The translations under genes and the position numbers were made by a program. The notes under the pieces were generated by a model. That model had not been told where the DNA came from. It saw nothing but the letters and a program-made list of their open reading frames with translations, and searched no databases. From positions 1-12,694 of the forward strand of contig JAISGB010000090.1 of NCBI GenBank assembly GCA_031263335.1: a DNA stretch of 12,694 nucleotides, read 5' to 3'. Source of the stretch: Eubacteriales Family XIII. Incertae Sedis bacterium (GTDB lineage Bacteria > Bacillota > Clostridia > Peptostreptococcales > Anaerovoracaceae). Positions 304 to 12,694 of this stretch are shown piece after piece. Within the stretch, counting starts at the first letter, position 1. Every line of letters begins with the position of its first letter.

Positions 304-1539
304 TTGCGAAAAAAAATTGTGGTCGCGATCACGCTGATGTTGGCCGTCATATGTCTTTTCCCGATCCAAAGCTCCGCCGCGTACGAGACGTGGAATGAGG
401 TCGTGGACGACATGGAAGCGGTCTTGAACGAATCATATGACATCTTTGCGTCCGGGGATATCGAGGGCGGGAAGAAAAAGGTGGACGAGGCCTACTTCGG
501 ATATTATGAGAAATTGGGTTATGAGAAAACCGTCATGGCCTATATCTCCGGGGAACGCGCCGCACAGGTGGAATACGAGTTCAGCTTCGCGAAAAAGGCC
601 ATGACCTCCAACGATGAGGCGGCGGTTCGGGAATCCTTGGACAACCTGATCCGCTATCTGCGCGAGGACGCCAATTCCTTGGACGGCTCCGACGAGAGCG
701 CGGCGGGAACCTTTATCGCGTCACTGCTCATCATCACGCGGGAAGGCTTCGAGGCCATCATCGTGGTGGGCGCGATCGTCGCCTACCTCGTAAAGAGCGG
801 GAACAAGGGGCATACAAGGGCCGTCTACATCGGTTCCCTCATCGCCTTGGCGCTCAGCGTCGCGATGGCGTTTGTCCTCAACGCCTTGGCCGGCGCAAAC
901 GCGGGAGAAAATCAGGAGATCATCGAGGGCGCCACCATGTTGGTGGCGGTGGCGGTGCTGTTCTATGTAAGCAATTGGATGGTCTCAAAAGCCGAGGCTT
1001 CCGTATGGATGCGCTATATCGAAGGGATGGTCGAGACGTCCATCACGCGGGGCAGCGTGTTCTCCCTGTCGTTCGCGGCGTTCTTGGCCGTATTCCGGGA
1101 AGGCGCCGAAACCATCCTCTTTTACCAAGCCCTCTTGGCCGGGACGGACAGTTACGCCAACATGATCTGGTTGGGCTTGGGCGTCGGTTGCGTGGTACTG
1201 GTGGTCATCTACATCCTGATCCGCGTCCTCAGCTTCCGTCTGCCGCTGAAACCCTTCTTCCTCGGCACCAGTATCCTGCTTGCGGTCATGTGCATCTCGT
1301 TCCTCGGATCGGGCATCAAGGAGTTGCAGGAAGGCAATGTGATCGGCGTCACCTCCTTGCCGGGGGTCGGGACCGTGGACATCTTGGGCATCTATCCGAC
1401 GGCTGAAACGCTCATTCCTCAGATCATCCTGCTCGTCGTCACGGCGCTCACCTTCGTGATACAGATACGCAAGGGGCGGCGGTTGCGCGCGACCGTCGGT
1501 GATCCGCCGGGGAAGGACGGCGCGGGCAAGACATCCTGA
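304..1539 (+). CDS. FTR1 family iron permease with signal peptide
   Basis: This is the membrane permease of the iron uptake operon (FTR1/FetM/EfeU family, equivalent to Cj1658 in Campylobacter), importing iron across the cytoplasmic membrane. From the TTG at 304 the protein has 411 residues. It has a basic start and hydrophobic signal peptide (about 1-26), an extracytoplasmic helical domain (about 27-135), then roughly seven membrane segments. Both hallmark REXXE iron-binding motifs are present: REGFE (146-150) and REGAE (265-269). The N-terminal domain is a known variant of the family. An in-frame extension to 154 would add 50 Arg-rich residues before the signal peptide and is rejected. The P19 gene follows after 124 bases. 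Family certain; preferred iron form (ferrous or ferric) not readable from sequence. Confidence 0.93.
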   Translation: MRKKIVVAITLMLAVICLFPIQSSAAYETWNEVVDDMEAVLNESYDIFASGDIEGGKKKVDEAYFGYYEKLGYEKTVMAYISGERAAQVEYEFSFAKKAMTSNDEAAVRESLDNLIRYLREDANSLDGSDESAAGTFIASLLIITREGFEAIIVVGAIVAYLVKSGNKGHTRAVYIGSLIALALSVAMAFVLNALAGANAGENQEIIEGATMLVAVAVLFYVSNWMVSKAEASVWMRYIEGMVETSITRGSVFSLSFAAFLAVFREGAETILFYQALLAGTDSYANMIWLGLGVGCVVLVVIYILIRVLSFRLPLKPFFLGTSILLAVMCISFLGSGIKELQEGNVIGVTSLPGVGTVDILGIYPTAETLIPQIILLVVTALTFVIQIRKGRRLRATVGDPPGKDGAGKTS

Positions 1540-1663
1540 CGTTGCGGTTTTGTTGAAAATGATCCGCTCGCGCGGGCGTCCGAGCCGTACGCGTCTCGTC
1601 TCCATCGCGAAGGGATCTTTCAAATATCGGTTAGCACACAGTTATGATAGGAGGACAAACAGA

Positions 1664-2308
1664 ATGACAAGCAAGAAAATATTGGCGCTTCTCTTGGCGG
1701 TCCTGATCGCGATGTTCGGCTTCGCGGCCTGCGGCAATTCCGAAGACTCCGGCGATTCCGGCGATTCCTCGGATGCCGGCGCGGCGGATACGGGCGACGA
1801 CGCGGAGGACACCGAGGATGTGGGTCCCGGCGGCGCGGCGGGCTTTGAGGAATTCCCCATCGGCGACGACATCGAGGTCGGCCCCCTCAATGTGGCGGGC
1901 GTCTACTTCCAACCCGTGGACATGGAGCCGGCGGGCGGCAGCTTGGCTGCGGCCGAATCGGACTTCCATATCGAGGCGGACATCTCCGCGCTTGAGAACG
2001 ATCTCGGTTACGGCGTGGGCGACTTCGTGCCTTGGCTGACGGTCGATTATGAGATCACGGACGCGGACGGCAACATCGCCGCGGAGGGTACGTTCATGCC
2101 CATGAGCGCCAGCGACGGCCCCCACTACGGCGCGAACATCAGCCTCGGCGGCAAGGCCGGCACATATGACGTCAAGTTCTCCATCAAAAACCCCGAGTCC
2201 CAAGGCTATCTGTTGCATGTGGACAAGACCACCGGCGTAGAGGGACGCTTCTGGACGGAGCCGTTGGTGGCCGAATGGCAATTCGATTTCGTACCGAGGG
2301 AGTGGTGA
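1664..2308 (+). CDS. P19/Tp34-family iron-binding lipoprotein
   Basis: This extracytoplasmic metal-binding protein is the partner of the FTR1 permease (P19 of Campylobacter, FetP of E. coli). The ATG at 1664 has AGGAGG 9 bases upstream; the protein has 214 residues. A lipoprotein signal ends at Cys23 (FAAC), so it is anchored to the membrane rather than free, as expected for a Gram-positive envelope. A Ser/Asp/Gly-rich acidic linker (about 25-60) follows. The P19 fold (about 62-214) keeps the family signatures: DMEP, FHIEAD, a TFMPM motif and a SDGPHYGAN motif. His102, Glu104, Met147, Asp151, His154 and His185 fall where the family's copper/iron ligands lie. It is co-transcribed with the neighbours on both sides. 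Identification is strong; the linker is the unusual part. Confidence 0.95.
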   Translation: MTSKKILALLLAVLIAMFGFAACGNSEDSGDSGDSSDAGAADTGDDAEDTEDVGPGGAAGFEEFPIGDDIEVGPLNVAGVYFQPVDMEPAGGSLAAAESDFHIEADISALENDLGYGVGDFVPWLTVDYEITDADGNIAAEGTFMPMSASDGPHYGANISLGGKAGTYDVKFSIKNPESQGYLLHVDKTTGVEGRFWTEPLVAEWQFDFVPREW

Positions 2309-2381
2309 GCCACTGTTACAGTATCTCATACAGACAACAGAACATGCGCTGAATCCCGCAATTCTCCTCGCGCTGATCCTC

Positions 2382-3551
2382 ATGGCCGTATGCAGGGACG
2401 GCAACGGGACGGGCTATCGGCGGATATGGGCAAGCATTTTGACCGGCGTGATTATCGCGTCGGTCTTGGCTTGCCTGATCCATGAAACGACATGGATCAA
2501 TCGGGAATTCCTGAACATCGGCATCCTGTCCCCGGCGATCCTCGCCGCGCTCGTATGCATCGCGCTGTCGTGGGGCGCCTTGCGCGGGCGGGCGCGGCGC
2601 GCGCGCGGGATATCGTCCTCCCTGCTCATCGCGATCCTGCCGATCTACTGTCTGCCCACCATCCTGCTCTATCCCACGCAATTCCTGCTTGCGGGCGAAA
2701 GCATCTTCAGCACGGATTTCCTGTTCAAGTCCATCGGCTATTTGGCCGGCCTCCTGATCGTCCTGCTTGCGGCCTTGGCGCTCTTCAAGACGCGGGACGG
2801 CGTACCCGATCGATTGTTGCGCGTCCTTCTGACGGCGGGACTCGCGATCAACGTCACGGATTGGTTCTCCACCATCGTGCAGTTTCTCCTCGCGCGGCGG
2901 ATCATCCCCATGTCGAAGGGCGTCTTCCGGTTCGTGATGGAGACGGTCAATCACAGCGACTATTTCCTGTACCTCATCATGGCGATCACGTTGCCGTTGC
3001 CCTTCCTGCTGTGGGCAAAGAACTTCCGCCCGCAGGGGGATGGGGCAAATCCCGCCCAATATCGGAAGATCCGGGCGACGGCCCGACGGACCCGCCGCCT
3101 CAGCGCGCTCATTCTCGTCTGCTACGTCCTGTCCGTCGTCACCCTGACGGCGGTAAAAGCCTATGACGAACGGGAAGTGACGCTTTCGCCGGCGGAACCC
3201 ATGACCATAGAGGGCGGGCGCATCACCATCCCGATCGAGAACGTCGAGGACGGACATCTTCATCGTTTTGCCTATATGTCCTCCGAACAGGTCGAAATAC
3301 GCTTCATCGTGATCAAGAAGAACGCGTCCGCCTGGGGCGTCGGCTTGGACGCCTGTGACATCTGCGGCGCCACGGGCTACTATGAGCGGGACGACGAGGT
3401 GATATGCAAACTCTGCGACGTGGTCATGAACAAATCGACCATCGGCTTCAAGGGGGGATGCAACCCCGTCCCCTTGGCCTACACGGTCGCGGACGGCGAC
3501 ATGGTCGTCCTGACGCAGGATCTGGAAAACGAACAATCGCGGTTTGAATGA
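2382..3551 (+). CDS. DUF2318 membrane protein with CxxC/CxxC cluster domain
   Basis: Polytopic protein of the p19 locus (Cj1660-like). About seven or more membrane segments occupy residues 15-260. A C-terminal extracytoplasmic domain follows with CDIC (Cys325/328), CKLC (Cys342/345) and GGCNP (Cys360), plus a conserved HRFAY stretch at 294-298. The family is annotated as Fe-S-containing or metal-binding; a role in electron transfer to iron or to the ABC partners is inference. From the ATG at 2382 it has 389 residues, but that ATG has no ribosome site. The frame is open upstream, encoding a family-like start (LLQYLIQTTEHALNP) from a CTG at 2313, 10 bases after GGGAG. The true start is probably there. 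The stop overlaps the ATG at 3548 as ATGA. Confidence 0.88.
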   Translation: MAVCRDGNGTGYRRIWASILTGVIIASVLACLIHETTWINREFLNIGILSPAILAALVCIALSWGALRGRARRARGISSSLLIAILPIYCLPTILLYPTQFLLAGESIFSTDFLFKSIGYLAGLLIVLLAALALFKTRDGVPDRLLRVLLTAGLAINVTDWFSTIVQFLLARRIIPMSKGVFRFVMETVNHSDYFLYLIMAITLPLPFLLWAKNFRPQGDGANPAQYRKIRATARRTRRLSALILVCYVLSVVTLTAVKAYDEREVTLSPAEPMTIEGGRITIPIENVEDGHLHRFAYMSSEQVEIRFIVIKKNASAWGVGLDACDICGATGYYERDDEVICKLCDVVMNKSTIGFKGGCNPVPLAYTVADGDMVVLTQDLENEQSRFE

Positions 3552-3565
3552 ATGGAGCGGAATCG

Positions 3566-4849
3566 ATGTTTTGGCGATTGGTAAACGGCGCGCTGTTTCG
3601 GCAAAAAGGGAAGATGTTGATGATCGCCTTCACGATCGCATTGGGGGCGTCCTTGGCCACGGCCATGCTGAACGTCATGCTCGACGTGGGCGATAAGGTG
3701 AACCGGGAATTGAAGACCTACGGGGCCAACATCAACGTGATCCCCAAGGAAGCGTCCCTGCTCGACGATCTCTACGGCGTCGACGAGGGTTCCGGCGTCT
3801 CGGATCGGTATCTGCAGGAATCGGAAATGGGGCGGCTGAAGACGATCTTCTGGGCGTTCAACATCGTGGACTTTGCCCCCTACTTGGACGCGAAGATCCG
3901 TATGCCCGAATCGGAGGACGCGATCCGTCTCGTGGGAACTTGGTTCGCGAACCGGTTGGAACTCCCCACGGGGGAATCCTTGGACACGGGTATACGCAAT
4001 ATGAAGAGTTGGTGGACGGTGGACGGCGAATGGCTCTCCGACGGCGATACGGACGCCGCCATGGTGGGCCGTCTGCTTGCGGACAGAGCCGGACTCTCCG
4101 TGGGCGACCGCCTCTCCGTAAGCCTCGGCGACAAGGAGCGGAATCTGACGGTCAAGGGCATATTCGACGCCGGCAGCGAGGAGGACGAACGCGTCTATGT
4201 ACCACTGCCCATCGCGCAGGAGATGGCGGGCCGGGCGGGCTTGGTCACCGGCGTGGAGGTCAGCGCGTTGACGACGCCGGACAACGAACTCTCCCGTCGC
4301 GCGGCGCAAAACCCGAACAGCCTTTCCGTGAAGGACTGGGAGACTTGGTATTGCACGGCCTATGTGAGCGCCATCTGCTATCAGATCGAAGAAGTCCTGA
4401 CCGATTCCGTGGCCAAGCCCATTCGGCAGGTGGCGGAATCCGAAGGGGCGATCTTGGAAAAGACGCAGTTGCTCATGTTGCTGATCACCGTGCTGAGCCT
4501 CGCGGGCGCGGCCTTGGGCATATCGAACTTGGTTACGGCGAGCGTCATGGAACGAAGCCGCGAGATCGGGCTGTTGAAGGCGCTCGGCGCCAACAACGCG
4601 CCCATCTCGTGGTTGGTGCTGACGGAGATACTTATCACGGGCGTGATCGGCGGCGTGATCGGCTACTTCGTCGGCTTGGGTTTCGCGCAGATCATCGGAC
4701 AGACCGTGTTTGACGCGGCGATCAACATCAAACCCATGGTCATCCCGTTGGTCGCGATCCTCGTGTTCCTCGTGACCTTGGCGGGCAGCATCCCGTCGAT
4801 ACGGCTGTTGCTGTCGTTGCGCCCCGCGGAAGTCCTGCACGGCAGGTAA
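3566..4849 (+). CDS. FtsX/MacB-like ABC transporter permease, first of pair
   Basis: Cj1661-like permease of the p19 operon. It has the MacB-type layout: one N-terminal membrane segment (about 16-38), a large extracytoplasmic domain (about 40-295), and three C-terminal segments (about 300-325, 350-378, 389-415). The FtsX motif MERSREIGLLKALGA (328-342) is the coupling region facing the ATPase. The ATG at 3566 is chosen because GGAG (3554-3557) stands 8 bases before it and the family starts with an MFxRL-type sequence; length is then 427. The ATG at 3548 overlaps the upstream stop and would add six residues by translational coupling. Two cysteines (263 and 271) lie in the extracytoplasmic domain just before the second membrane segment. 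The transported substrate is unknown; such transporters often act on envelope proteins or lipids rather than move a small solute. Confidence 0.9.
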   Translation: MFWRLVNGALFRQKGKMLMIAFTIALGASLATAMLNVMLDVGDKVNRELKTYGANINVIPKEASLLDDLYGVDEGSGVSDRYLQESEMGRLKTIFWAFNIVDFAPYLDAKIRMPESEDAIRLVGTWFANRLELPTGESLDTGIRNMKSWWTVDGEWLSDGDTDAAMVGRLLADRAGLSVGDRLSVSLGDKERNLTVKGIFDAGSEEDERVYVPLPIAQEMAGRAGLVTGVEVSALTTPDNELSRRAAQNPNSLSVKDWETWYCTAYVSAICYQIEEVLTDSVAKPIRQVAESEGAILEKTQLLMLLITVLSLAGAALGISNLVTASVMERSREIGLLKALGANNAPISWLVLTEILITGVIGGVIGYFVGLGFAQIIGQTVFDAAINIKPMVIPLVAILVFLVTLAGSIPSIRLLLSLRPAEVLHGR

Positions 4850-4894
4850 GGTAACGACTCAACGATCACGCTGTTCGCCGCGCGCATAGCGGGC

Positions 4895-4933
4895 CGCATC
4901 CGATGCGTTGCGTATTCCGGAACCGCAATACGC
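4895..4933. repeat. Two short inverted repeats between the permease genes
   Basis: CGCATC/GATGCG (4895-4900 and 4902-4907) is a near-perfect dyad with a single central base. GCGTATT/AATACGC (4910-4916 and 4927-4933) is a 7-bp inverted repeat with 10 bases between. They abut copy 2 of the dyad-containing repeat. No T-run follows, so termination is unlikely. They show that the 155-bp gap between the permease genes is structured. Confidence 0.4.
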
Positions 4934-4963
4934 AAAACTATCGCGACCGTTGAATCGATTTTG
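4933..4963. repeat. Dyad-containing repeat element, copy 2
   Basis: The first 18 bases equal those at 66-83, and the rest diverges moderately while keeping a TTTTG end. The outer arms are weaker than in copy 1: CAAAA/TTTTG plus TCG/CGA, with three unpaired bases. An AT-rich stretch containing TATTAT (4967-4972) follows directly, then the second permease gene. This may be an internal promoter region sharing the regulator of the operon's main promoter. Confidence 0.55.
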
Positions 4964-5004
4964 TTATATTATTATTGTATGTTGCTATGAAGACGGAGCG
5001 CTGT

Positions 5005-6141
5005 ATGACGAAACGAAGCATGTACTTCAAGATGATCGCGAGTTCGCTGATCCGTCGGCGATCCCGGATGTTCGTCGCCCTGTTGGCCGTGGCTGTCGGG
5101 GCGACCATTCTCTCCGGACTCGTCACCATCTACTATGACATCCCGCGTCAGATGGGACAGGAATTCCGCTCCTACGGCGCGAACTTCATCTTGGTACCCG
5201 CGAGCGGGGAGGAAGCCCTCTCCGAGACGTCCGCGGAGGCGGCCGTGTCCCTCATCCCCTCAGACGAAGTCGTCGGGATCGCGCCTTACCGCTATGAAAC
5301 GGTGAAGATCAACGAGCAGCCCTTCATGGCGGCGGGGACGGAGCTCGAAGAAGCGCGCAAGGCCAGCCCGTATTGGTTCGTGTCCGGGGACTGGCCGGAG
5401 ACGGACGGGAGCGTACTCATCGGCCAAGAGGTGGCCGACACGATCCGCCTGCTTCCCGGAAACACATTCACCATGACGGGGACGGACGGAAACGGGGAAA
5501 GCTTCAGCCGGGAGTTTCGCGTTTCGGGCGTCGTGCAGACCGGGGGGACGGAGGAAGCGTTCATCTTCATGTCCATGGCGGACTTCGTCGCGGCCATGGG
5601 CGAGAGCGGGGCGTACGACGTGGTGGAATGCAGCATCTCCGCGCCGCAGACGGAACTTGAGGACATCGCCGCCTCGGTGACGGAACGCGTACCCGATGTC
5701 GCGCCGCGGTTGGTCACGCGCGTGACCCGTTCGGAGGGGACGGTCCTGACAAAACTGCAGGCATTGGTATTTCTCGTGACGGCGGTCGTGTTGCTCTTGA
5801 CGATGATCTGCGTCGCCACCACGATGATGGCGGTGGTCGCGGAGCGACGCAAGGAAATCGGGCTGAAAAAAGCCTTGGGCGCGCCGAACAGGAACATCAT
5901 CTTGGAATTCATGGGGGAGGGGCTGCTCTTGGGTTGCTTGGGCGGCGTCCTCGGCGTGATCCTCGGGTTCGGCTTCGCCCAACTCATCGGCGTCAATGTG
6001 TTCAGCCGTTCCGTCCATTTTCAGGCGGCGTTGGCGCCCGTCACCCTCATCGCGTCCGTCCTCATCACGGGTTTGGCCTGTATGATCCCCGTCAGAAGCG
6101 CGACCGATGTGGATCCGGCCATCGTGTTGCGCGGGGAATGA
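5005..6141 (+). CDS. FtsX/MacB-like ABC transporter permease, second of pair
   Basis: Cj1662-like permease, expected to form a heterodimer with the product of the preceding permease gene. From the ATG at 5005 (GGAG 4995-4998, spacing 6) it has 378 residues. One membrane segment lies at about 20-42, an extracytoplasmic domain at about 45-245, and three segments at about 250-280, 300-330 and 340-365. The FtsX coupling motif ERRKEIGLKKALGAP lies at 280-294. Upstream alternatives (TTG 4975, ATG 4987) add a short tail without a better ribosome site. The 155-bp gap before it is the longest within the operon and carries the repeat element, so it may also be transcribed from its own promoter. Substrate unknown. 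Confidence 0.9.
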   Translation: MTKRSMYFKMIASSLIRRRSRMFVALLAVAVGATILSGLVTIYYDIPRQMGQEFRSYGANFILVPASGEEALSETSAEAAVSLIPSDEVVGIAPYRYETVKINEQPFMAAGTELEEARKASPYWFVSGDWPETDGSVLIGQEVADTIRLLPGNTFTMTGTDGNGESFSREFRVSGVVQTGGTEEAFIFMSMADFVAAMGESGAYDVVECSISAPQTELEDIAASVTERVPDVAPRLVTRVTRSEGTVLTKLQALVFLVTAVVLLLTMICVATTMMAVVAERRKEIGLKKALGAPNRNIILEFMGEGLLLGCLGGVLGVILGFGFAQLIGVNVFSRSVHFQAALAPVTLIASVLITGLACMIPVRSATDVDPAIVLRGE

Positions 6142-6182
6142 GACGACCGGAAACCGAACGGCGGCGCAGCGGGCGAATTCAA

Positions 6183-6192
6183 AACTTAAGTT
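6183..6192. promoter_or_regulatory. Palindrome AACTTAAGTT before the ATPase gene
   Basis: A perfect 10-bp palindrome in an AT-rich island within the 88-bp gap between the second permease and the ATPase. It could be a protein-binding site. No convincing -35/-10 pair accompanies it. Confidence 0.25.
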
Positions 6193-6229
6193 ACGATAAA
6201 TGATATTCGGAGCGGAAAGAGGCATTGGC

Positions 6230-6916
6230 ATGAGTCTGTTGGAAATAAGAGGCATATCGAAGATCTACGGCAACGTCAACGCGTTGCGAAATGTGGACAT
6301 GACGGTCGAACAAGGCGAATGGCTCGCCGTCATGGGGCCGTCCGGCTCGGGCAAGACCACGATGATGAACATCATCGGTTGCATGGATAAGCCTTCCGAG
6401 GGGACGGTCCTGCTCGACGGCATCGATATTTCCACGGAAAGCGCGCGAAACCTGACGTCGATCCGCAGGGACAAGATCGGCCTGATCTTCCAACAGTTTC
6501 ACCTGATCAACTATCTGACGGCGCTGGAAAACGTGATGGTCGCCCAGTATTACCACAGTATGCCCGACGAAAAGGAAGCCCTGCAAGCCTTGGATCGGGT
6601 CGGCCTTTTGGCGCGGGCGAAGCATCTGCCGAGCCAACTTTCCGGCGGGGAGCAACAGCGGGTCTGCATCGCGCGCGCCCTGATCAACTACCCCATGTTG
6701 GTCCTTGCGGACGAACCCACGGGGAACTTGGATGAGGCCAACGAAGAGATCGTCCTCGATATCTTCAGAAAGCTGCATGAGGAGGGGATCACCATCGTCG
6801 TCGTCACCCACGACCCGGAGGTGGCGCAGGAAGCTCAGAGAACCGTGATCTTGGAACACGGTCGCATCGCGCGGATCGTCGTGAACGAAAGCGGAAAGGG
6901 ACAAGAGGGAGAGTGA
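6230..6916 (+). CDS. ABC transporter ATPase, MacB/LolD type
   Basis: Cytoplasmic ATP-hydrolysing subunit that should drive the two FtsX-type permeases (Cj1663-like). All motifs are intact: Walker A GPSGSGKT (36-43), Q-loop IFQQ (86-89), signature LSGGE (137-141), Walker B MLVLADE (156-162) with catalytic Glu162, D-loop GNLD and switch His194. The ATG at 6230 is preceded by AAGAGG (6217-6222) at 7 bases and gives 228 residues, normal for the family. An in-frame ATG at 6200 has no ribosome site. One base separates its stop from the next start, so the FMN-binding gene is certainly in the same transcript. Confidence 0.95.
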
Positions 6917-6917
6917 C

Positions 6918-7409
6918 ATGAACGCGAAGAGACAGAACAGGACGAAGGAGCAAAGGCGCGCGGCCCGCAAGGCGGCGCCGGGGATCAAGATCGCGGCGGC
7001 CTTGCTTGCGATTGCGCTTCCGGCGTTTGCCGGCGGTTGCGGCGGCGCGGACACAGACGTGACGGCTTTGGAGGACGGCGTATACATCGGCGTCAGCAGC
7101 GAGGACGACGACGGCGCCTACGGTGAAGTGACCATCACCGTGAAAGACGGGACGATCACGGACTGCGGCTTCGTCACGTGGCAGAAGGACGGCAGCGTAA
7201 AGGATGAAGAATACGGGAAGGTGAACGGAGAGATCTCCAACCGGGATTTCTACGACAAGGCGCAATTGGCGGTCCGCGCCATGCAACAATACGCGGACGC
7301 GTTGGTGGAGACCCAATCGTCGCAAGATGTGGATGCGGTGACGGGCGCCACCATCGCCCACGGGCAGTTCCTTGAGGCGGTCGACGACGCGCTGAACGAC
7401 GAGAAATAG
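6918..7409 (+). CDS. FMN-binding lipoprotein with flavinylation motif
   Basis: Extracytoplasmic redox carrier, 163 residues. A basic start and hydrophobic stretch (about 23-38) end at a lipobox-like GGC, Cys41. The FMN-binding domain (about 50-163) carries DAVTGAT (139-145). In this family the final Thr of the [S/T]GAT motif (here Thr145) is covalently linked to FMN by the flavin transferase ApbE. No apbE lies in the window. GAGGGAG (6905-6911) lies 6 bases before the ATG. As the last gene of the iron operon, it occupies the place where Campylobacter has thioredoxin-like genes. It probably passes electrons to the DUF2318 protein, to P19-bound iron, or to the ABC complex; that role is inference. 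Confidence 0.9.
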   Translation: MNAKRQNRTKEQRRAARKAAPGIKIAAALLAIALPAFAGGCGGADTDVTALEDGVYIGVSSEDDDGAYGEVTITVKDGTITDCGFVTWQKDGSVKDEEYGKVNGEISNRDFYDKAQLAVRAMQQYADALVETQSSQDVDAVTGATIAHGQFLEAVDDALNDEK

Positions 7410-7480
7410 CGACGCGCCCTTCCGTTCGCCCGCGATCCCTCCCGCGCCGCGCGCCCGACCGGACGCGCGGTGTTCGTCGC
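7409..7480. terminator. GC-rich nested hairpin after the iron operon
   Basis: Outer arms GCGACG/CGTCGC (7409-7414 and 7475-7480) enclose inner arms CCGCGCG/CGCGCGG (7447-7453 and 7464-7470). It lies between the convergent FMN-lipoprotein and flavin-reductase genes. No U-tract exists on either strand, so it is not a standard intrinsic terminator, though a strong hairpin between convergent genes could still block read-through. Confidence 0.3.
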
Positions 7481-7482
7481 GC

Positions 7483-7995
7483 TCATCCCCGATCCGCCTT
7501 ATACTTTTGGAAGGCCGCCATCGCGGCGTCCTTCATGTCCCGTTGGTAATCCCCGTAGATCAGCGGACGATGTTCGTTCTCACCGGTCCACGCGTCCTCC
7601 ACATCACAGAGAAAGAGCGTATGTGTGGCGAGTTCCTTCAGTTCGTACAAACGCAGACGCACATAGGATACCGCGCCGTCCAAGACCGGCAGACCGTTCT
7701 TGACGGTATGCGGCGCGTCCGCCCACTTGTCCGCGTTTCGCGCGGACCGAAACCCGAAATTCGCGACGACAAAGGGATCCACATCATCCGCGAGGACGGA
7801 GAGCGTAAGCTCCCGCTCCGCCTTGAAGCGCTCGTTCGTGTAGTTGTTCTTCATGCTGCCGATCGCGATGATCGGCCGTTCGCCCGCGGACACCTGCGCC
7901 ACCGCGTCGACGATGCAACCGCCGTATCCGTCCGGCGTCTTCACCCCCGCCACATACAAGCCGTACGACAATTTATATAAGGCCGTGTTATCCAT
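7483..7995 (-). CDS. Flavin reductase-like FMN-binding split-barrel protein
   Basis: A 170-residue protein of the flavin reductase-like family, which binds FMN and reduces flavin or hands electrons to a partner. The N-terminal LSYGLYVAG, the GGCIVDAVAQVS stretch (25-36), NNYTNERF (50-57), FGFRSARNADKW (80-91) and THTLFLCDVEDA (124-135) fit the conserved blocks. Clostridial homologues are often fused to rubredoxin or a diiron domain; here the protein ends after the barrel (GDYQRDMK), so the partner must be encoded elsewhere. The ATG at 7995 has GGAGG 7 bases upstream. It is encoded convergently with the iron operon. A link to flavin or iron reduction there is possible but unproven. Confidence 0.85.
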   Translation of the reverse strand: MDNTALYKLSYGLYVAGVKTPDGYGGCIVDAVAQVSAGERPIIAIGSMKNNYTNERFKAERELTLSVLADDVDPFVVANFGFRSARNADKWADAPHTVKNGLPVLDGAVSYVRLRLYELKELATHTLFLCDVEDAWTGENEHRPLIYGDYQRDMKDAAMAAFQKYKADRG

Positions 7996-8088
7996 CTCTT
8001 TCCCTCCGTAAACCAAACCCGTCGTCCTCGGCGCCAACTGCCGGCGATCCGCGCCGCACCGCCCCGAACGGACGCGCGGCACAAGGCA

Positions 8089-8094
8089 ATTATA
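8089..8094 (-). promoter_or_regulatory. Extended -10 promoter of the flavin reductase gene
   Basis: On the minus strand a perfect TATAAT is preceded by TGG, an extended -10 (TGnTATAAT). No good -35 is found at 16-18 bases, which is tolerable with an extended -10. Transcription would start near 8083, giving a leader of about 88 nt. Confidence 0.5.
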
Positions 8095-8171
8095 CCACAT
8101 TTGCCTCCGGGCCGCCCCGCAACGCAGACGAGCCGTGAAACTTACCGCCCGATCGCATTTTTGCGCGCAGG

Positions 8172-8200
8172 TTGATTCTCGCGGAGAAACGTGCCATAAT
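8172..8200 (+). promoter_or_regulatory. mobB promoter
   Basis: TTGATT (8172-8177) and CATAAT (8195-8200) are separated by 17 bases; each differs from consensus at one or two positions. Transcription would start near 8207, about 70 bases before the mobB ATG. Confidence 0.55.
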
Positions 8201-8275
8201 CTTCTTGCGGCGTCCCGCCCCACAGTCGGGGTTCCGTCCAATGTACGCCGGTTCACCGAGGATATGAGAGGCATC

Positions 8276-8770
8276 ATGAAGAAACCCTTCGTCGTCGCCG
8301 TCAGCGGCAGAAAAAACAGCGGCAAGACCACCTGTATCGAGCGACTCCTTCCGCTTCTCGCGGAGGCGGGCGTCCAAACCGCCGTCATCAAGCACCACGG
8401 CCACGATTTGGACCCGGACGTTCCGGGTACCGACACCTATCGGTTCTTTCACGTCGGCGCCGTCGGCGCCGTCATTACGGACGACAGCAACTTCATGTTG
8501 GTGAAACGAAGCAAGGCGGACGAACGCGCGTTGATGGCGTATTTCCCCGAGGCGGATCTCATTCTTTTGGAGGGCTATAAGCGATCCGCATGGCCCAAGA
8601 TCGAGATGTTGCGCCATATCAAGGAGCCCGACAGCGACCCGTCCACGCTCATCGCCGTCGTCAGCGACGACCCCGCGTGCCGCGTACCGGCGGGTACGCC
8701 CATCTTTCGTTTCGGGGACTGCGAGGGGATCGCGGCGCTGCTCCTGCGACTGCTTCGATCCGTCGTGTAA
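8276..8770 (+). CDS. mobB: Molybdopterin-guanine dinucleotide biosynthesis protein MobB
   Basis: A P-loop GTP-binding adaptor that assists the last step of molybdenum cofactor synthesis, where MobA attaches GMP to molybdopterin. The protein has 164 residues. Walker A is GRKNSGKTT (11-19), with IKHHGHD (39-45) and the family's DLILLEGYK (94-102) followed by WPKIEMLR (106-113). The ATG at 8276 is preferred because the sequence MKKPFVVAVSG is a typical MobB start and AGAGG lies 4 bases before it; an in-frame ATG at 8264 would add four residues. No other molybdenum-cofactor gene is in the window, so it appears to be a single-gene unit with its own promoter. Its presence implies at least one molybdo- or tungsto-enzyme in the cell. 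Confidence 0.9.
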   Translation: MKKPFVVAVSGRKNSGKTTCIERLLPLLAEAGVQTAVIKHHGHDLDPDVPGTDTYRFFHVGAVGAVITDDSNFMLVKRSKADERALMAYFPEADLILLEGYKRSAWPKIEMLRHIKEPDSDPSTLIAVVSDDPACRVPAGTPIFRFGDCEGIAALLLRLLRSVV

Positions 8771-8787
8771 TATTTTTGTAATATTTT
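8767..8787. repeat. Tandem AT-rich repeat, possible UP element of csp
   Basis: GTAATATTTT occurs twice in an 11-base period (8767-8776 and 8778-8787). The first copy overlaps the mobB stop codon. The tract ends 12 bases before the csp -35, where AT-rich UP elements that bind the RNA polymerase alpha subunit usually lie. Confidence 0.4.
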
Positions 8788-9321: not shown

Positions 9322-11328
9322 TCATTCGATCCGCGCATACTCCCTGTCGAGCATATTCTTACTGCCCAAATAGGTCGCGAAGAAATACCCGCCGTAGACG
9401 ATCAGCATGATCAGCGCCATGAACAGGCTGCCGGCGAGTATACTGCCCGTTCCCAACATGCCTGTGACCCGATTCACCATGGAGATGCCCACGACGGCGT
9501 GTACCAAGGCGAGCGCCAACGGTACGCCGAAAAAGATCAGTATCTGCGTGAACAACGCCCGATGAATCATCCGCTCATCCGTGCCGATCTTGCGGAGCAA
9601 CCCATATCGGCTGATGTTGTCGCTCGTCTCCGACAATTGCGAGATGGCGAGTATGGCGGCGGAGGTGATCAGGAACACGATGCCCAGATATATGGCGAGA
9701 TAGGCGATGGTTGTGGTCGCCGTACTGCTCGTTTCCCGAACGCTCGCGCCCGTCTCCAACGATCTCTCGACCCCGGAGGGCAATGGGAGGCCCTTCAGGG
9801 CTTCGCGGCATTGCGTATCGTATTCGCGCCCTTCCCCCTTATAGATGATGTGAAGGACGTCGGCTGCGGGACGCGCGCCGTCGAGCAAGGCGTCCGGCAC
9901 GATGAGGGTCGGCGACATGCCCGAATTCTGCGTGACGTACAGCGCGTATTGAAACAGGAGGGACGCGTCCGTCTTGAGTTTCTCGCCGCCGACCCGGATC
10001 GTCGGGGCGCGCCCCGCGAGCGCGGTAAGCTTTTCCACGTACGCCTCATTATCAAAACCGGAGTCAATCGCAAATTGCCCCGGCGCCAAGGCGATGGGGT
10101 CGACGCCCCTGTTTTTCAGTATCGTGTTGAAATCCGACAGTTTCATGAACCGAGGCCCCATATCCGAGAGTTCCCGATCCATATCCGCGTTCCCGTCCGC
10201 CTTGTAATAGCGCGTCGTCCAATACGTCTTCGCGAAACCGGACAAGTCCGCCCCGCCCTCCTTCGCGGCGCGGATCAGGTCAACCCCCGGATAATCCCGC
10301 ACGGTCTCGCCGTCCTTCGTAAACCCCGCGTTCACGAGGAACCCCGCGTCAAAGGGGATGTTTTTTTCCATGGACTCGGCAAGCCCCTTCGCAACTCCGA
10401 TGCCGGAGGACAGCGTGGAGATCGAGATGAAGAGCATCAGGCAGACCATGGTCATGGATATATAGGTCGTGTTGATCTTGCTGTTGATCTGCCGCAACAC
10501 GAACATATTGAGTCCCTTCAAATACACTCGCTTGTTCTGTTGCAACAGCTTCAGGAAGAACCCGGACAGCGAGAAGAAGAACAGAAAGGTGCCGACAACG
10601 CCCAAGACGATCGCGACGCCGAGGGTTTGCACCCCGAACACGCCGTCGCCCGAAACCAAGAAATACGCGCCCCCGAGCAGAACGGCCGCGACGATGAAGA
10701 GAAACACCGACAGGAAGAGCTTCGGCGTCTTGAACGTCTCATTCTTGCGGTCGGCATAGATCAGATCGATCAGGTTCTGCTTTTGCACCATGAACACGTT
10801 GAAGATCAAGGTCAGCAAAAAAACCGCGCCGAAGCAGATGACCGTTTTCCACATCGCGGCGGAGGAAAATATGAACTCAAAATGCCCGATCTCCGCGCCG
10901 AGCAGCCCGGCCGTGACCAACGCCATCCCTTGGGAAAGCAGGACGCCCATCGCCGTCCCGACGCCGAGTGAGATCAACCCGACGAGAATGGTTTCCGACA
11001 CCAAGATGCGCGACATTGCCCCCTTCTCCATGCCGAGCGTCATATAGATGCCGAACTCCTTCTTGCGGCGCCTGATCAGAAAGCGATTCGCGTAGAGGAT
11101 CAGGGCGCCGAGGATCACGGAGACAAACACGGAGAATGTGGTCATGACATTGTTCAACAGGCGCAGGATCCCCATCTGCCCGTTCGTCAGATCCATGATC
11201 GCCTGTTGGCTTTCGATGGAATTGAAGACGAAGAAGATGCACACGCCGAAGGTCAGCGTCAGGAAATAGATGGCATAGTCGCGAAAGCTCTTCTTCACAT
11301 TGCGCAACGCCAACTTAAATGATGTCAT
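9322..11328 (-). CDS. bceB: BceB-type ABC transporter permease
   Basis: Membrane subunit of a BceAB-type module, which protects against cell-wall-active peptide antibiotics and also senses them for its two-component partner. The 668-residue protein has the ten-segment BceB layout. There are four N-terminal segments with the FtsX coupling motif (KKEFGIYMTLG, about 89-99). Further segments reach residue 310, then the large extracytoplasmic domain characteristic of BceB (about 315-538), then three last segments with a second motif (SRYGLLRKIG, 573-582). The ATG at 11328 has GGAGG (11337-11341) at 8 bases. It overlaps the bceA stop by 14 bases, so translation is coupled. The recognised peptide cannot be read from sequence. 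Confidence 0.93.
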   Translation of the reverse strand: MTSFKLALRNVKKSFRDYAIYFLTLTFGVCIFFVFNSIESQQAIMDLTNGQMGILRLLNNVMTTFSVFVSVILGALILYANRFLIRRRKKEFGIYMTLGMEKGAMSRILVSETILVGLISLGVGTAMGVLLSQGMALVTAGLLGAEIGHFEFIFSSAAMWKTVICFGAVFLLTLIFNVFMVQKQNLIDLIYADRKNETFKTPKLFLSVFLFIVAAVLLGGAYFLVSGDGVFGVQTLGVAIVLGVVGTFLFFFSLSGFFLKLLQQNKRVYLKGLNMFVLRQINSKINTTYISMTMVCLMLFISISTLSSGIGVAKGLAESMEKNIPFDAGFLVNAGFTKDGETVRDYPGVDLIRAAKEGGADLSGFAKTYWTTRYYKADGNADMDRELSDMGPRFMKLSDFNTILKNRGVDPIALAPGQFAIDSGFDNEAYVEKLTALAGRAPTIRVGGEKLKTDASLLFQYALYVTQNSGMSPTLIVPDALLDGARPAADVLHIIYKGEGREYDTQCREALKGLPLPSGVERSLETGASVRETSSTATTTIAYLAIYLGIVFLITSAAILAISQLSETSDNISRYGLLRKIGTDERMIHRALFTQILIFFGVPLALALVHAVVGISMVNRVTGMLGTGSILAGSLFMALIMLIVYGGYFFATYLGSKNMLDREYARIE

Positions 11329-12082
11329 TTGCGTCACCTCCGAGCAGGCTGATCACCTCGATGATCCGATCGAAGAACTGCTTTCGGGACGCGCCGCCGC
11401 GCACCAACTCATGGAACAGCTTGCCGTCGCGTATGAACAGGATCCGATTGCAGTAACTGGCCGAGAACGCGTCATGGGTCACCATGAGAATGGTGGCGTT
11501 GCGCTGTTCGACCAAATGCTCGAAACGTTCGAGCAACATCCGCGCGGATTTGGAATCCAACGCGCCCGTAGGCTCGTCGGCAAGCACGAGCGACGGTTCC
11601 GTCACGATGGCGCGCGCGCTCGCGACCCGTTGTCTCTGGCCGCCGGACATCTGATAGGGGTATTTCTTCAGCACGTCGGAAATGCCCAATATCCGGGCGG
11701 CGTCCTGTGTCCGCCTGTCGATCTCCCGGTGCGGCGTGTCCAAGATGGTCAACGCCAACGCGATGTTCTCGTACGCCGTCAGCGTGTCCAATAAATTGAA
11801 ATCCTGGAATATAAACCCTAACTCCTCGCGCCGGAACTTGGCAAGCGCCTTGGCGTGCATGGCCGTGACGTCCACGCCGCCGATGAGAATTTGGCCCGAT
11901 GTGGCGGTATCGATCGTGGAAATACAGTTGAGCAAGGTGGTCTTTCCGCTGCCCGACGCGCCCATCACGCCCATGAATTCCCCGGCGTCGACATCGAAAC
12001 TGATGCCGTCCAACGCCTTCGTCAGATTGTTCCTGTTCCCGTAATATTTTTCAACATGATGCGCTTGTAATATCGCAGACAT
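11315..12082 (-). CDS. bceA: BceA-type ABC transporter ATPase
   Basis: Cytoplasmic ATPase powering BceB, 255 residues. Motifs are complete: Walker A GASGSGKT (41-48), Q-loop Gln93 (IFQDFNLLDT), signature MSGGQ (145-149), Walker B SLVLADE (164-170), D-loop GALD and switch His203. The IFQDFNLLDTLT and YPYQMSGGQRQRV blocks are typical of the BceA branch. The ATG at 12082 has GAGGG (12090-12094) 7 bases upstream; an open extension to 12193 lacks family resemblance. A candidate promoter and a BceR-like operator lie in the 233-base gap to the kinase gene, indicating expression induced through the adjacent two-component system. Confidence 0.95.
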   Translation of the reverse strand: MSAILQAHHVEKYYGNRNNLTKALDGISFDVDAGEFMGVMGASGSGKTTLLNCISTIDTATSGQILIGGVDVTAMHAKALAKFRREELGFIFQDFNLLDTLTAYENIALALTILDTPHREIDRRTQDAARILGISDVLKKYPYQMSGGQRQRVASARAIVTEPSLVLADEPTGALDSKSARMLLERFEHLVEQRNATILMVTHDAFSASYCNRILFIRDGKLFHELVRGGASRKQFFDRIIEVISLLGGDANDII

Positions 12083-12226
12083 AATATTTCCCTCATTTTC
12101 TCCACCGTGATTGGGGGAACCCCATCGGCGAACCTGTTGTAAATGCCTTTCCGTCAATTCCCGCTCGCAAACGGGGTTCCGCTTAGCGTACATCCGCGTC
12201 GAAACTCGACCTCTTCCGATGTCCGG

Positions 12227-12267
12227 CTATGGTCAATTATAGTTCGCGCCTAATACGGAAACCATAG
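12227..12267. repeat. Inverted repeat flanking the bceA -10
   Basis: CTATGGT (12227-12233) and ACCATAG (12261-12267) are perfect 7-bp arms 27 bases apart, enclosing the TATAAT of the candidate bceA promoter. Could be a second operator or coincidence. Confidence 0.25.
12236..12241 (-). promoter_or_regulatory. Candidate -10 of the bceAB promoter
   Basis: A perfect TATAAT on the minus strand. The -35 region at 16-18 bases spacing is poor (TGGTTT at 12264-12259), as expected for a promoter that needs an activator. The transcript would have a leader of about 147 nt. In that leader GGAACCCC and GGGGTTCC (12116-12123 and 12173-12180) could pair over a long distance. Confidence 0.5.
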
Positions 12268-12285
12268 AAGTACCTTTCGCGAACC

Positions 12286-12299
12286 TTACAATGCTGTAA
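12286..12299. promoter_or_regulatory. BceR-like response regulator binding site
   Basis: TTACA-ATGC-TGTAA, within the perfect dyad CTTACA/TGTAAG (12285-12300), matches the TNACA-N4-TGTAA consensus known for BceR-like regulators. It lies about 45 bases upstream of the bceA -10 and 16 bases past the kinase stop. This predicts induction of bceAB by the BceRS system whose kinase gene lies just upstream. Confidence 0.7.
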
Positions 12300-12315
12300 G
12301 CATAGGGAGGGGGAG

Positions 12316-12694
12316 TCAATCCCACGCGCGCTTCGGGAACACGATCTCCGCGGTCACCCCTTCCCCGGAGCGGGAAGAAGCGGAGATCGACAAGCCGAGC
12401 TTCGTACACAGTTTCCGGCACAGATACAGGCCCAATCCCGTGGAGCGTCCGTAGAGACGCCCGTTTTCGCCCGTAAAACTCTTTTCAAAGACCCGTTTGA
12501 GGTCCGCTTCGGGAATCCCGATGCCGTCGTCCCGCACCATGAGGGAAACGCCGCCCTCGCGCGGGACGGCGAAGAACTCGATGTTTTCACCGCCGTACTT
12601 CACGGAGTTGTTGATGATCTGGCGCAGGATAAAGGAGACCCATTTCACATCGGTATATACCTTGAAGGAAAGATCGCCCATGTGAACCCCGATC
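12316..12694 (-). CDS. bceS: BceS-like sensor histidine kinase, C-terminal part (cut by window edge)
   Basis: Only the ATP-binding domain is visible, about 125 residues; the gene continues beyond the right edge, and the frame is open through the last base. The N box IINNSVKYGG, G1 box DDGIGIPEADLKRVFEKSF and G2 box STGLGLYLCRKLC are intact, so the visible part is functional-looking HATPase_c. The preceding YTDVKWVSFILRQI block is typical of BceS-type intramembrane-sensing kinases, which lack a large external sensor and rely on BceB for detection. The phosphorylated His, membrane segments and the response regulator are outside the window. The internal Met at 12681 is not the start. Confidence 0.88.
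   Translation of the reverse strand, partial: IGVHMGDLSFKVYTDVKWVSFILRQIINNSVKYGGENIEFFAVPREGGVSLMVRDDGIGIPEADLKRVFEKSFTGENGRLYGRSTGLGLYLCRKLCTKLGLSISASSRSGEGVTAEIVFPKRAWD

Follow-up and report, generated by a model that had tools for sequence, protein, structure and literature searches.

A P19-type iron operon with a predicted FMN-binding lipoprotein as its seventh gene in a draft genome of a Family XIII clostridial bacterium

Gene content of the operon and its published counterparts

The stretch analysed here, hereafter called the window, is the entire 12,694-base contig JAISGB010000090.1 of a Family XIII clostridial draft genome (GCA_031263335.1; 1.57 Mb, 58.8% complete, 279 contigs). Seven consecutive genes, all on the + strand between positions 304 and 7409, encode an FTR1-family permease, a P19 lipoprotein, a DUF2318 membrane protein, two FtsX-type permeases, an ATPase and a flavin mononucleotide (FMN)-binding lipoprotein. 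A preliminary description had listed these gene kinds and assigned them to a P19-type iron operon whose first six members follow the known order, and both statements were borne out by Pfam profile searches at curated cut-offs together with key residues. The features are as follows.

304..1539, +, FTR1-family iron permease (PF03239, 5e-34; REGFE at 739, REGAE at 1096)
1664..2308, +, P19 iron-binding lipoprotein (PF10634, 1.3e-55; solved relatives; His, Glu and Met columns conserved)
2313..3551, +, DUF2318/FtrD-like membrane protein, as FetA and SifA (PF10080, 3e-31; CTG start inferred; CxxC at 3354 and 3405, fifth Cys at 3459)
3548..4849, +, FtsX/MacB-type permease 1 (Pfam: FtsX PF02687 and MacB_PCD)
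5005..6141, +, FtsX/MacB-type permease 2 (Pfam: the same two domains; reading frame open from 4975, the start at 5005 being a choice)
6200..6916, +, ATP-binding cassette (ABC) ATPase of MacB/FtsE/LolD type (profile match; ABC_tran, 9e-35)
6918..7409, +, predicted FMN-binding lipoprotein, SifE-like (FMN_bind PF04205, 8e-8, 33.3 bits against a cut-off of 22; lipobox-like Cys codon 7038-7040)
7332..7352, +, flavinylation motif D-A-V-T-G-A-T (expected FMN attachment at T145, codon 7350-7352)

The FTR1 gene starts with TTG at 304, with an AGGAGGG-like ribosome site, and its product contains the two REGxE motifs (REGFE, residue 146; REGAE, residue 265) by which P19/FetMP-FetABCD loci are recognized. 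In P19, residues H104, E106, M147, M149, H156 and H187 (aligned numbering) are invariant across nine sequences and presumably bind metal, as in the Campylobacter jejuni protein; solved structures related to it are 8t7m, 2o6c and 3lzl. The DUF2318 protein carries CDIC, CKLC and a fifth cysteine, and this CxxC-x13-CxxC-x14-C spacing fits the CxxC-x13-CxxC-x14,15-C motif given for the family (PMC6083913); no solved structure related to it turned up by sequence search. Its gene probably starts at CTG 2313 rather than at the first ATG (2382), since the methionine of relatives aligns there and homology extends upstream of that ATG; automatic gene calls would start 23 codons late (2313-2381). The order of the two permeases and the ATPase agrees with that published for P19/FetMP-FetABCD loci, and the whole series is not due to chance, because the identical order recurs among relatives in several phyla.

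The preliminary description had presented the FMN form as a departure from the usual, but the arrangement is already in print in three publications (PMC5449479, PMC6083913, PMC8238504) and the window is another instance of an FMN-type P19 system. The bfeUO-sifABCDE cluster of Bifidobacterium breve UCC2003, described in 2017, comprises FTR1, BfeO, SifA with eight transmembrane segments, two FtsX proteins, an ATPase and the FMN-binding SifE, which its authors called a possible ferric iron reductase (PMC5449479). These are the same seven gene kinds as in the window, BfeO and SifA being equated with P19 and DUF2318 by description and gene order; the B. breve cluster belongs to an actinobacterium and is transcribed as two units (bfeUO and sifABCDE), whereas the window comes from a clostridial draft. 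In 2018 the seventh gene was reported to be a thioredoxin in most Proteobacteria and FMN-binding in Actinobacteria, Firmicutes, Spirochaetes and Synergistetes, with iron reduction as its proposed role (PMC6083913), and in 2021 a survey counted 260 P19 clusters with FMN-binding genes and drew the parallel to thioredoxin (PMC8238504). The latter clusters, mostly Gram-positive, show the association found in the window and come with the same iron-redox proposal; the paper names no electron donor for them.

Compared with fetMP-fetABCDEF of C. jejuni and relatives, the window has the first six genes, their order and the DUF2318 cysteine motif in common (PMC6083913, PMC10783030), but in C. jejuni the seventh and eighth genes are thioredoxin-like and FetA bears, according to the paper, a YHS domain that Pfam did not detect in the window. 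EfeO and EfeB domains were absent from the window's seven genes in the Pfam search, and its FTR1 falls far below the cut-off of the EfeU model (116.6 against 255). The FtrABCD system contains a cupredoxin, FtrB, and a polyferredoxin, FtrD, and neither domain occurs among the seven genes. FtrABCD, known from Brucella and Bordetella, otherwise resembles the window in its FTR1-like FtrC (PMC11966278) and in FtrA, a relative of P19 whose solved chains match the window's P19.

Conservation and flavinylation of the seventh protein

An alignment scan with DUF2318 yielded at least 586 confirmed loci. The top 80 were retained for the survey; these are close relatives, most of them metagenome drafts, and the closest relatives of the window's protein are drafts labelled Clostridiales Family XIII. 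An ATPase gene is visible in 61 of these 80 loci and at least 450 bases lie beyond it in 56, the 24 loci excluded from the count being 19 without an ATPase gene and five with less than 450 bases behind it. The FMN gene directly follows the ATPase gene in 55 of the 56 readable loci, and four of the five shorter ones nevertheless show it. One of the 19 is a 19-kb locus (L092, 10192 onward) in which the P19 operon breaks off past DUF2318 and gives way to genes of other kinds, with no FtsX, ATPase or FMN gene found in the locus. Distances between the FMN proteins and between the DUF2318 proteins are correlated (r 0.69, 0 of 999 permutations, n=59, shared ancestry included), which fits joint inheritance, although common ancestry alone would give part of the correlation.

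Among 198 genomes of the order, P19 was present in 4, and among 391 of the class in 7, the window's genome being counted in both. All eight near-complete P19 genomes of the class have the FMN gene within the locus and ApbE in the genome, with two to four FMN_bind matches each; in a ninth P19 genome (G194) the contig ends at P19. Linkage in relatives thus upholds the FMN lipoprotein as a conserved seventh gene; a lack of such linkage, which the preliminary description had named as refuting its reading, was not observed. An extension to actinobacteria gave a P19-family match in 14 of 396 genomes; apart from that of G588, 12 of 13 were weak (E 2e-8 or worse), and the genome with a stronger match (G935) had no FTR1 or DUF2318 within 17 kb, no FMN_bind and no ApbE.

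The preliminary description had also stated that the FMN protein replaces the usual thioredoxin-like genes, which is too strong. In the Fet locus of Escherichia coli plasmids an NqrC-like FMN_bind gene lies upstream of FTR1, with thioredoxin-like genes on both sides, and strict replacement is ruled out by such enteric plasmid loci, in which both kinds occur together. In 817 of 850 matching plasmid records at least 80% of the E. coli Fet block lies together at a single site, and 849 of the 850 are at least 99% identical and hence represent one lineage. No thioredoxin match was obtained in the 80 loci by phmmer with only the two E. coli sequences, a search that may miss weak relatives.

The proteins of the FMN_bind family that are modified by ApbE carry the flavinylation motif Dxx[ST]GAT. 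The window's FMN protein (likely FLAVINYLATED) ends this motif in G143, A144 and T145, which, like Cys41, are invariant in the 55 aligned sequences, the window's included. The pattern [DENQ]xx[ST]GAT occurs in 48 of the 59 FMN frames of the 80 loci. Cys41 lies in a lipobox-like setting, and 47 of the 59 frames show a lipobox-like pattern (a pattern match, made with no signal-peptide program); solved relatives of the FMN domain are 3o6u, 2kzx and 8p2b. We consider the seventh protein likely to bear covalent FMN, as the preliminary description had proposed, because of the DxxTGAT motif, the presence of ApbE in the genome and the conserved linkage.

Genome-wide counts of FMN_bind and ApbE covered 35 genomes, the window's own (G000) plus the genomes behind 34 of the 80 loci, the latter picked for longer contigs and a spread of groups. 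In 11 of the 35, the window's genome included, FMN_bind matches the P19-locus gene and nothing else; G598, which also has a single FMN_bind match, stays outside the 11, since its P19 locus is the broken-off L092. ApbE was found in 28 of the 35 genomes and in nine of the 11, being absent from G580 and G593. In five sole-FMN genomes (G575, G579, G581, G583, G588) ApbE is the gene directly after the FMN gene; in G570 the ApbE gene stands upstream of FTR1 in the same orientation, and G597 carries it in the opposite orientation at a distance of about 2.4 kb. Among the 80 loci, nine have a visible ApbE gene. The window's genome has one ApbE match (4.4e-81), on a different contig from the operon, next to NusG_II-like and transporter-like genes named by sequence reading only. 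As seen by the FMN_bind profile, ApbE has no other FMN_bind client in a share of these bacteria, since the P19-locus gene is the sole match in 11 of the 35 genomes.

Proposed electron transfer: possible partner and direction

We favour, with moderate confidence, an FMN-type P19 iron uptake system in which the flavin passes electrons outward to the DUF2318 domain or its iron. P19 would retain iron outside the membrane and FTR1 would import it, while DUF2318, the two FtsX permeases and the ATPase would form an ATP-driven accessory module. ApbE, acting outside the membrane, would load FMN onto T145 of the presumably membrane-anchored seventh lipoprotein, and the reduced flavin could then, extracellularly, reduce either the cysteine-rich domain of DUF2318 or the iron that this domain holds, a transfer that may keep iron in a form usable by P19 and FTR1. 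The genes, the motif, the ApbE gene in the genome and the linkage are observed, whereas the covalent FMN of the window's protein, its partner and the direction of flow are what we infer in this scheme. Insertions in sifE or apbE of B. breve impair growth under ferrous chelators (PMC5449479), and a related protein with covalent FMN lies at -184 mV, low enough for ferric iron reduction (PMC10339131).

The B. breve transposon screen bears on the partner of the flavin protein (PMC5449479, Table 3). Mutants in bfeU and bfeO fail under dipyridyl, phenanthroline and ciclopirox, whereas sifA-E mutants fail or nearly fail with dipyridyl and phenanthroline and grow normally with ciclopirox. The apbE row is the only one outside the cluster to behave in the latter way, its growth being at most + at both dipyridyl doses and under phenanthroline, yet +++ under ciclopirox. 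A further nine rows score +++ under ciclopirox too but have weaker defects. The authors attributed the apbE phenotype to Fe-S repair. As ApbE is a flavin transferase, the plain reading is that its loss disables SifE. We found no paper ascribing the phenotype to SifE: a literature search on ApbE flavinylation in Bifidobacterium gave only PMC8238504, the main text of which contains neither Bifidobacterium nor sifE, and that of a 2025 ApbE review mentions neither Bifidobacterium nor P19 (PMC12052999).

A Fusobacterium record displays the order DUF2318-FtsX-FtsX-ATPase-FMN-DUF4418-FtsX-ATPase, and no FTR1 or P19 was found within 18.7 kb of that locus. This locus and the B. breve phenotypes, in which sifE behaves like sifA-D, indicate that the FMN protein belongs with the DUF2318-FtsX-ATPase module rather than with FTR1 and P19. 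The wording of the preliminary description, iron reduction before FTR1 import, still stands as inference, and the phenotypes tie the FMN gene to sifABCD instead of FTR1 and P19. Its observation of the genes is confirmed, its interpretation is partly supported and its arrangement is a known one. We advance only tentatively, and as less likely than not, the more specific proposal that the flavin lipoprotein serves the DUF2318-FtsX-ATPase machine as its redox arm and is not a reductase of P19/FTR1-bound iron, that it is the only client of ApbE in a good share of these bacteria, that the B. breve apbE phenotype reflects lost SifE flavinylation and that the partial Rnf sets of Clostridium minihomine and Faecalispora jeddahensis could feed it.

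Some loci enlarge this module. A second FtsX permease and/or ABC ATPase, often with DUF4418, a membrane protein bearing Cys and His, adjoins the P19-FMN operon in L008, L009, L010, L018 and L142-L147, and also in L031-L034 and L063; the window is without them. L018 is a Fusobacterium vincentii 'plasmid' record of 2.1 Mb with one listed feature, more likely a misfiled chromosome. In a Pelobacter propionicus plasmid (L020, 8435-11244) a short DUF2318 gene accompanies an FtsX permease and an ATPase in heavy-metal surroundings (an HMA protein and a P-type ATPase), and P19 and FTR1 were not found in 18.4 kb.

Closest to our preferred reading, with which it overlaps, is the possibility that the flavin protein never touches iron and instead maintains the redox state of the DUF2318 CxxC pairs, or of another thiol, in the manner of the thioredoxins in Gram-negative loci, the iron step being left to the FtsX-ATPase part. 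We give this a real chance, if somewhat short of even. DUF2318 with its CxxC pairs is the constant partner in FMN- and thioredoxin-type loci alike, the two kinds of gene stand within one cluster in the enteric plasmid loci, Fusobacterium keeps the DUF2318-FtsX-FtsX-ATPase-FMN series without P19 or FTR1, and sifE groups with sifA-D (PMC5449479). The four cysteines may, on the other hand, bind metal rather than cycle, and sequence searches returned no solved DUF2318 relative by which to judge. Flavins do not usually pass electrons to disulfides unless a dedicated reductase fold is present, which also counts against thiol upkeep.

Electron transfer in the opposite direction, with the FMN protein accepting electrons from ferrous iron oxidized for FTR1, as in the ferroxidase of yeast Ftr1 or the proposed role of FtrB, appears improbable. 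In other systems an oxidase acts, or has been proposed to act, alongside FTR1-family permeases (PMC11966278), the C. jejuni FetE and FetF proteins may be oxidases (PMC10783030), and Pfam detected neither a cupredoxin nor a multicopper oxidase among the window's seven genes. However, a covalent FMN at about -184 mV (PMC10339131) would be a poor acceptor from ferrous iron, compared with about +500 mV for FtrB (PMC11966278), and loss of sifE in B. breve does not give the bfeU/bfeO phenotype (PMC5449479). That the FMN gene is a passenger serving another extracytoplasmic electron chain, such as extracellular electron transfer (EET) or respiration, is very improbable: the sole NCBIfam match of the protein is the EET flavoprotein lipo_FMN_PplA, far under its cut-off (36.7 against 325 bits), and two or more FMN_bind matches occur in 23 of the 34 locus-derived genomes, but 11 of 35 genomes have no FMN_bind match besides this gene, 55 of 56 readable loci hold it within the operon, and a sifE insertion makes B. 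breve sensitive to ferrous chelators (PMC5449479).

Several observations weigh against outward electron transfer by a flavinylated seventh protein. The flavin protein is dispensable, as judged from L085 and from two Bifidobacterium species: L085, the one exception among the 56 readable loci, has other genes after the ATPase gene, in a genome with 17 FMN_bind matches, and sifE is missing from the otherwise retained sif cluster of B. bohemicum and B. bombi (PMC5449479). The insertions in sifA-D may be polar on sifE; sifE itself, however, is last in the cluster and has the phenotype on its own. The C. jejuni FetE and FetF proteins, in the equivalent position, look like oxidases and not reductases (PMC10783030). 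The motif is imperfect, with GAT preceded by a change in eight of the 59 frames, AAT in L069 and two frames cut by a contig end, and seven of the 35 genomes, G580 and G593 included, have FMN_bind but no ApbE match, although drafts may be incomplete.

Finally, no tested donor family is common to all 11 sole-FMN genomes. RnfD/NqrB was found in 2 of 11, Fer4_5 in 5 of 11 and DsbD_TM in 6 of 11 (one below the cut-off); G000, G583 and G588 matched none of these families, although drafts may be incomplete. A common electron donor was thus rejected among these families, EET, MsrQ, PepSY and DUF4405 donors lying outside the search. C. minihomine (L121, G575) has, at 5330-8772, RnfC- and RnfD-type genes and two Rnf-Nqr membrane subunits by Pfam, and F. 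jeddahensis (L122, G579) has, at 6285-8460, an RnfD gene adjoining an RnfC-type gene, the latter assigned by sequence reading. A profile search found no RnfG-type FMN_bind gene in either genome, and a partial Rnf set could feed the flavin protein, as a lineage-specific lead only.

The locus itself is ordinary; its interest lies in what DUF2318, the FtsX-ATPase machine and the seventh gene do in a system that spans several bacterial phyla. C. minihomine and F. jeddahensis, each with a sole FMN_bind match and an adjacent ApbE gene, allow a direct test, since loss of ApbE there would affect no further FMN_bind protein found by the profile.

Upstream region and genomic surroundings

One further feature lies upstream of the operon.

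154-159 and 166-184, +, TTGACA hexamer and DtxR-box-like palindrome (13 of 19 positions matching)

The TTGACA site was absent from the output of a promoter scan, and its -10 element is weak. In 48 relative loci the best DtxR-like match upstream of FTR1 averaged 12.6, against 10.9 in shuffled sequences, and reached at least 13 of 19 in 26 of the 48, the shuffled 95th percentile being 12; these numbers are rough, the shuffles having preserved non-overlapping base pairs only. The excess for a Fur box in the same loci was small (11.6 against 11.1). Iron control through a DtxR-type repressor is plausible from these matches.

Composition shows no sign of a foreign origin of the operon, which we rejected: its G+C content is 60.0%, against 57.2% in the remaining contig and 58.5% in the ApbE contig. 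No Rfam match and no tRNA were found in the window. Behind the operon lie genes for a Flavin_Reduct-domain protein (7483-7995, -) and MobB (8276-8770, +); as partners of the operon both were dismissed, since the relatives' loci examined gave no flavin reductase match and MobB in only one, L026. Open reading frames at 9322-12693 (-) read as the permease and ATPase of a Bce-like ABC system, together with the end of a histidine kinase.

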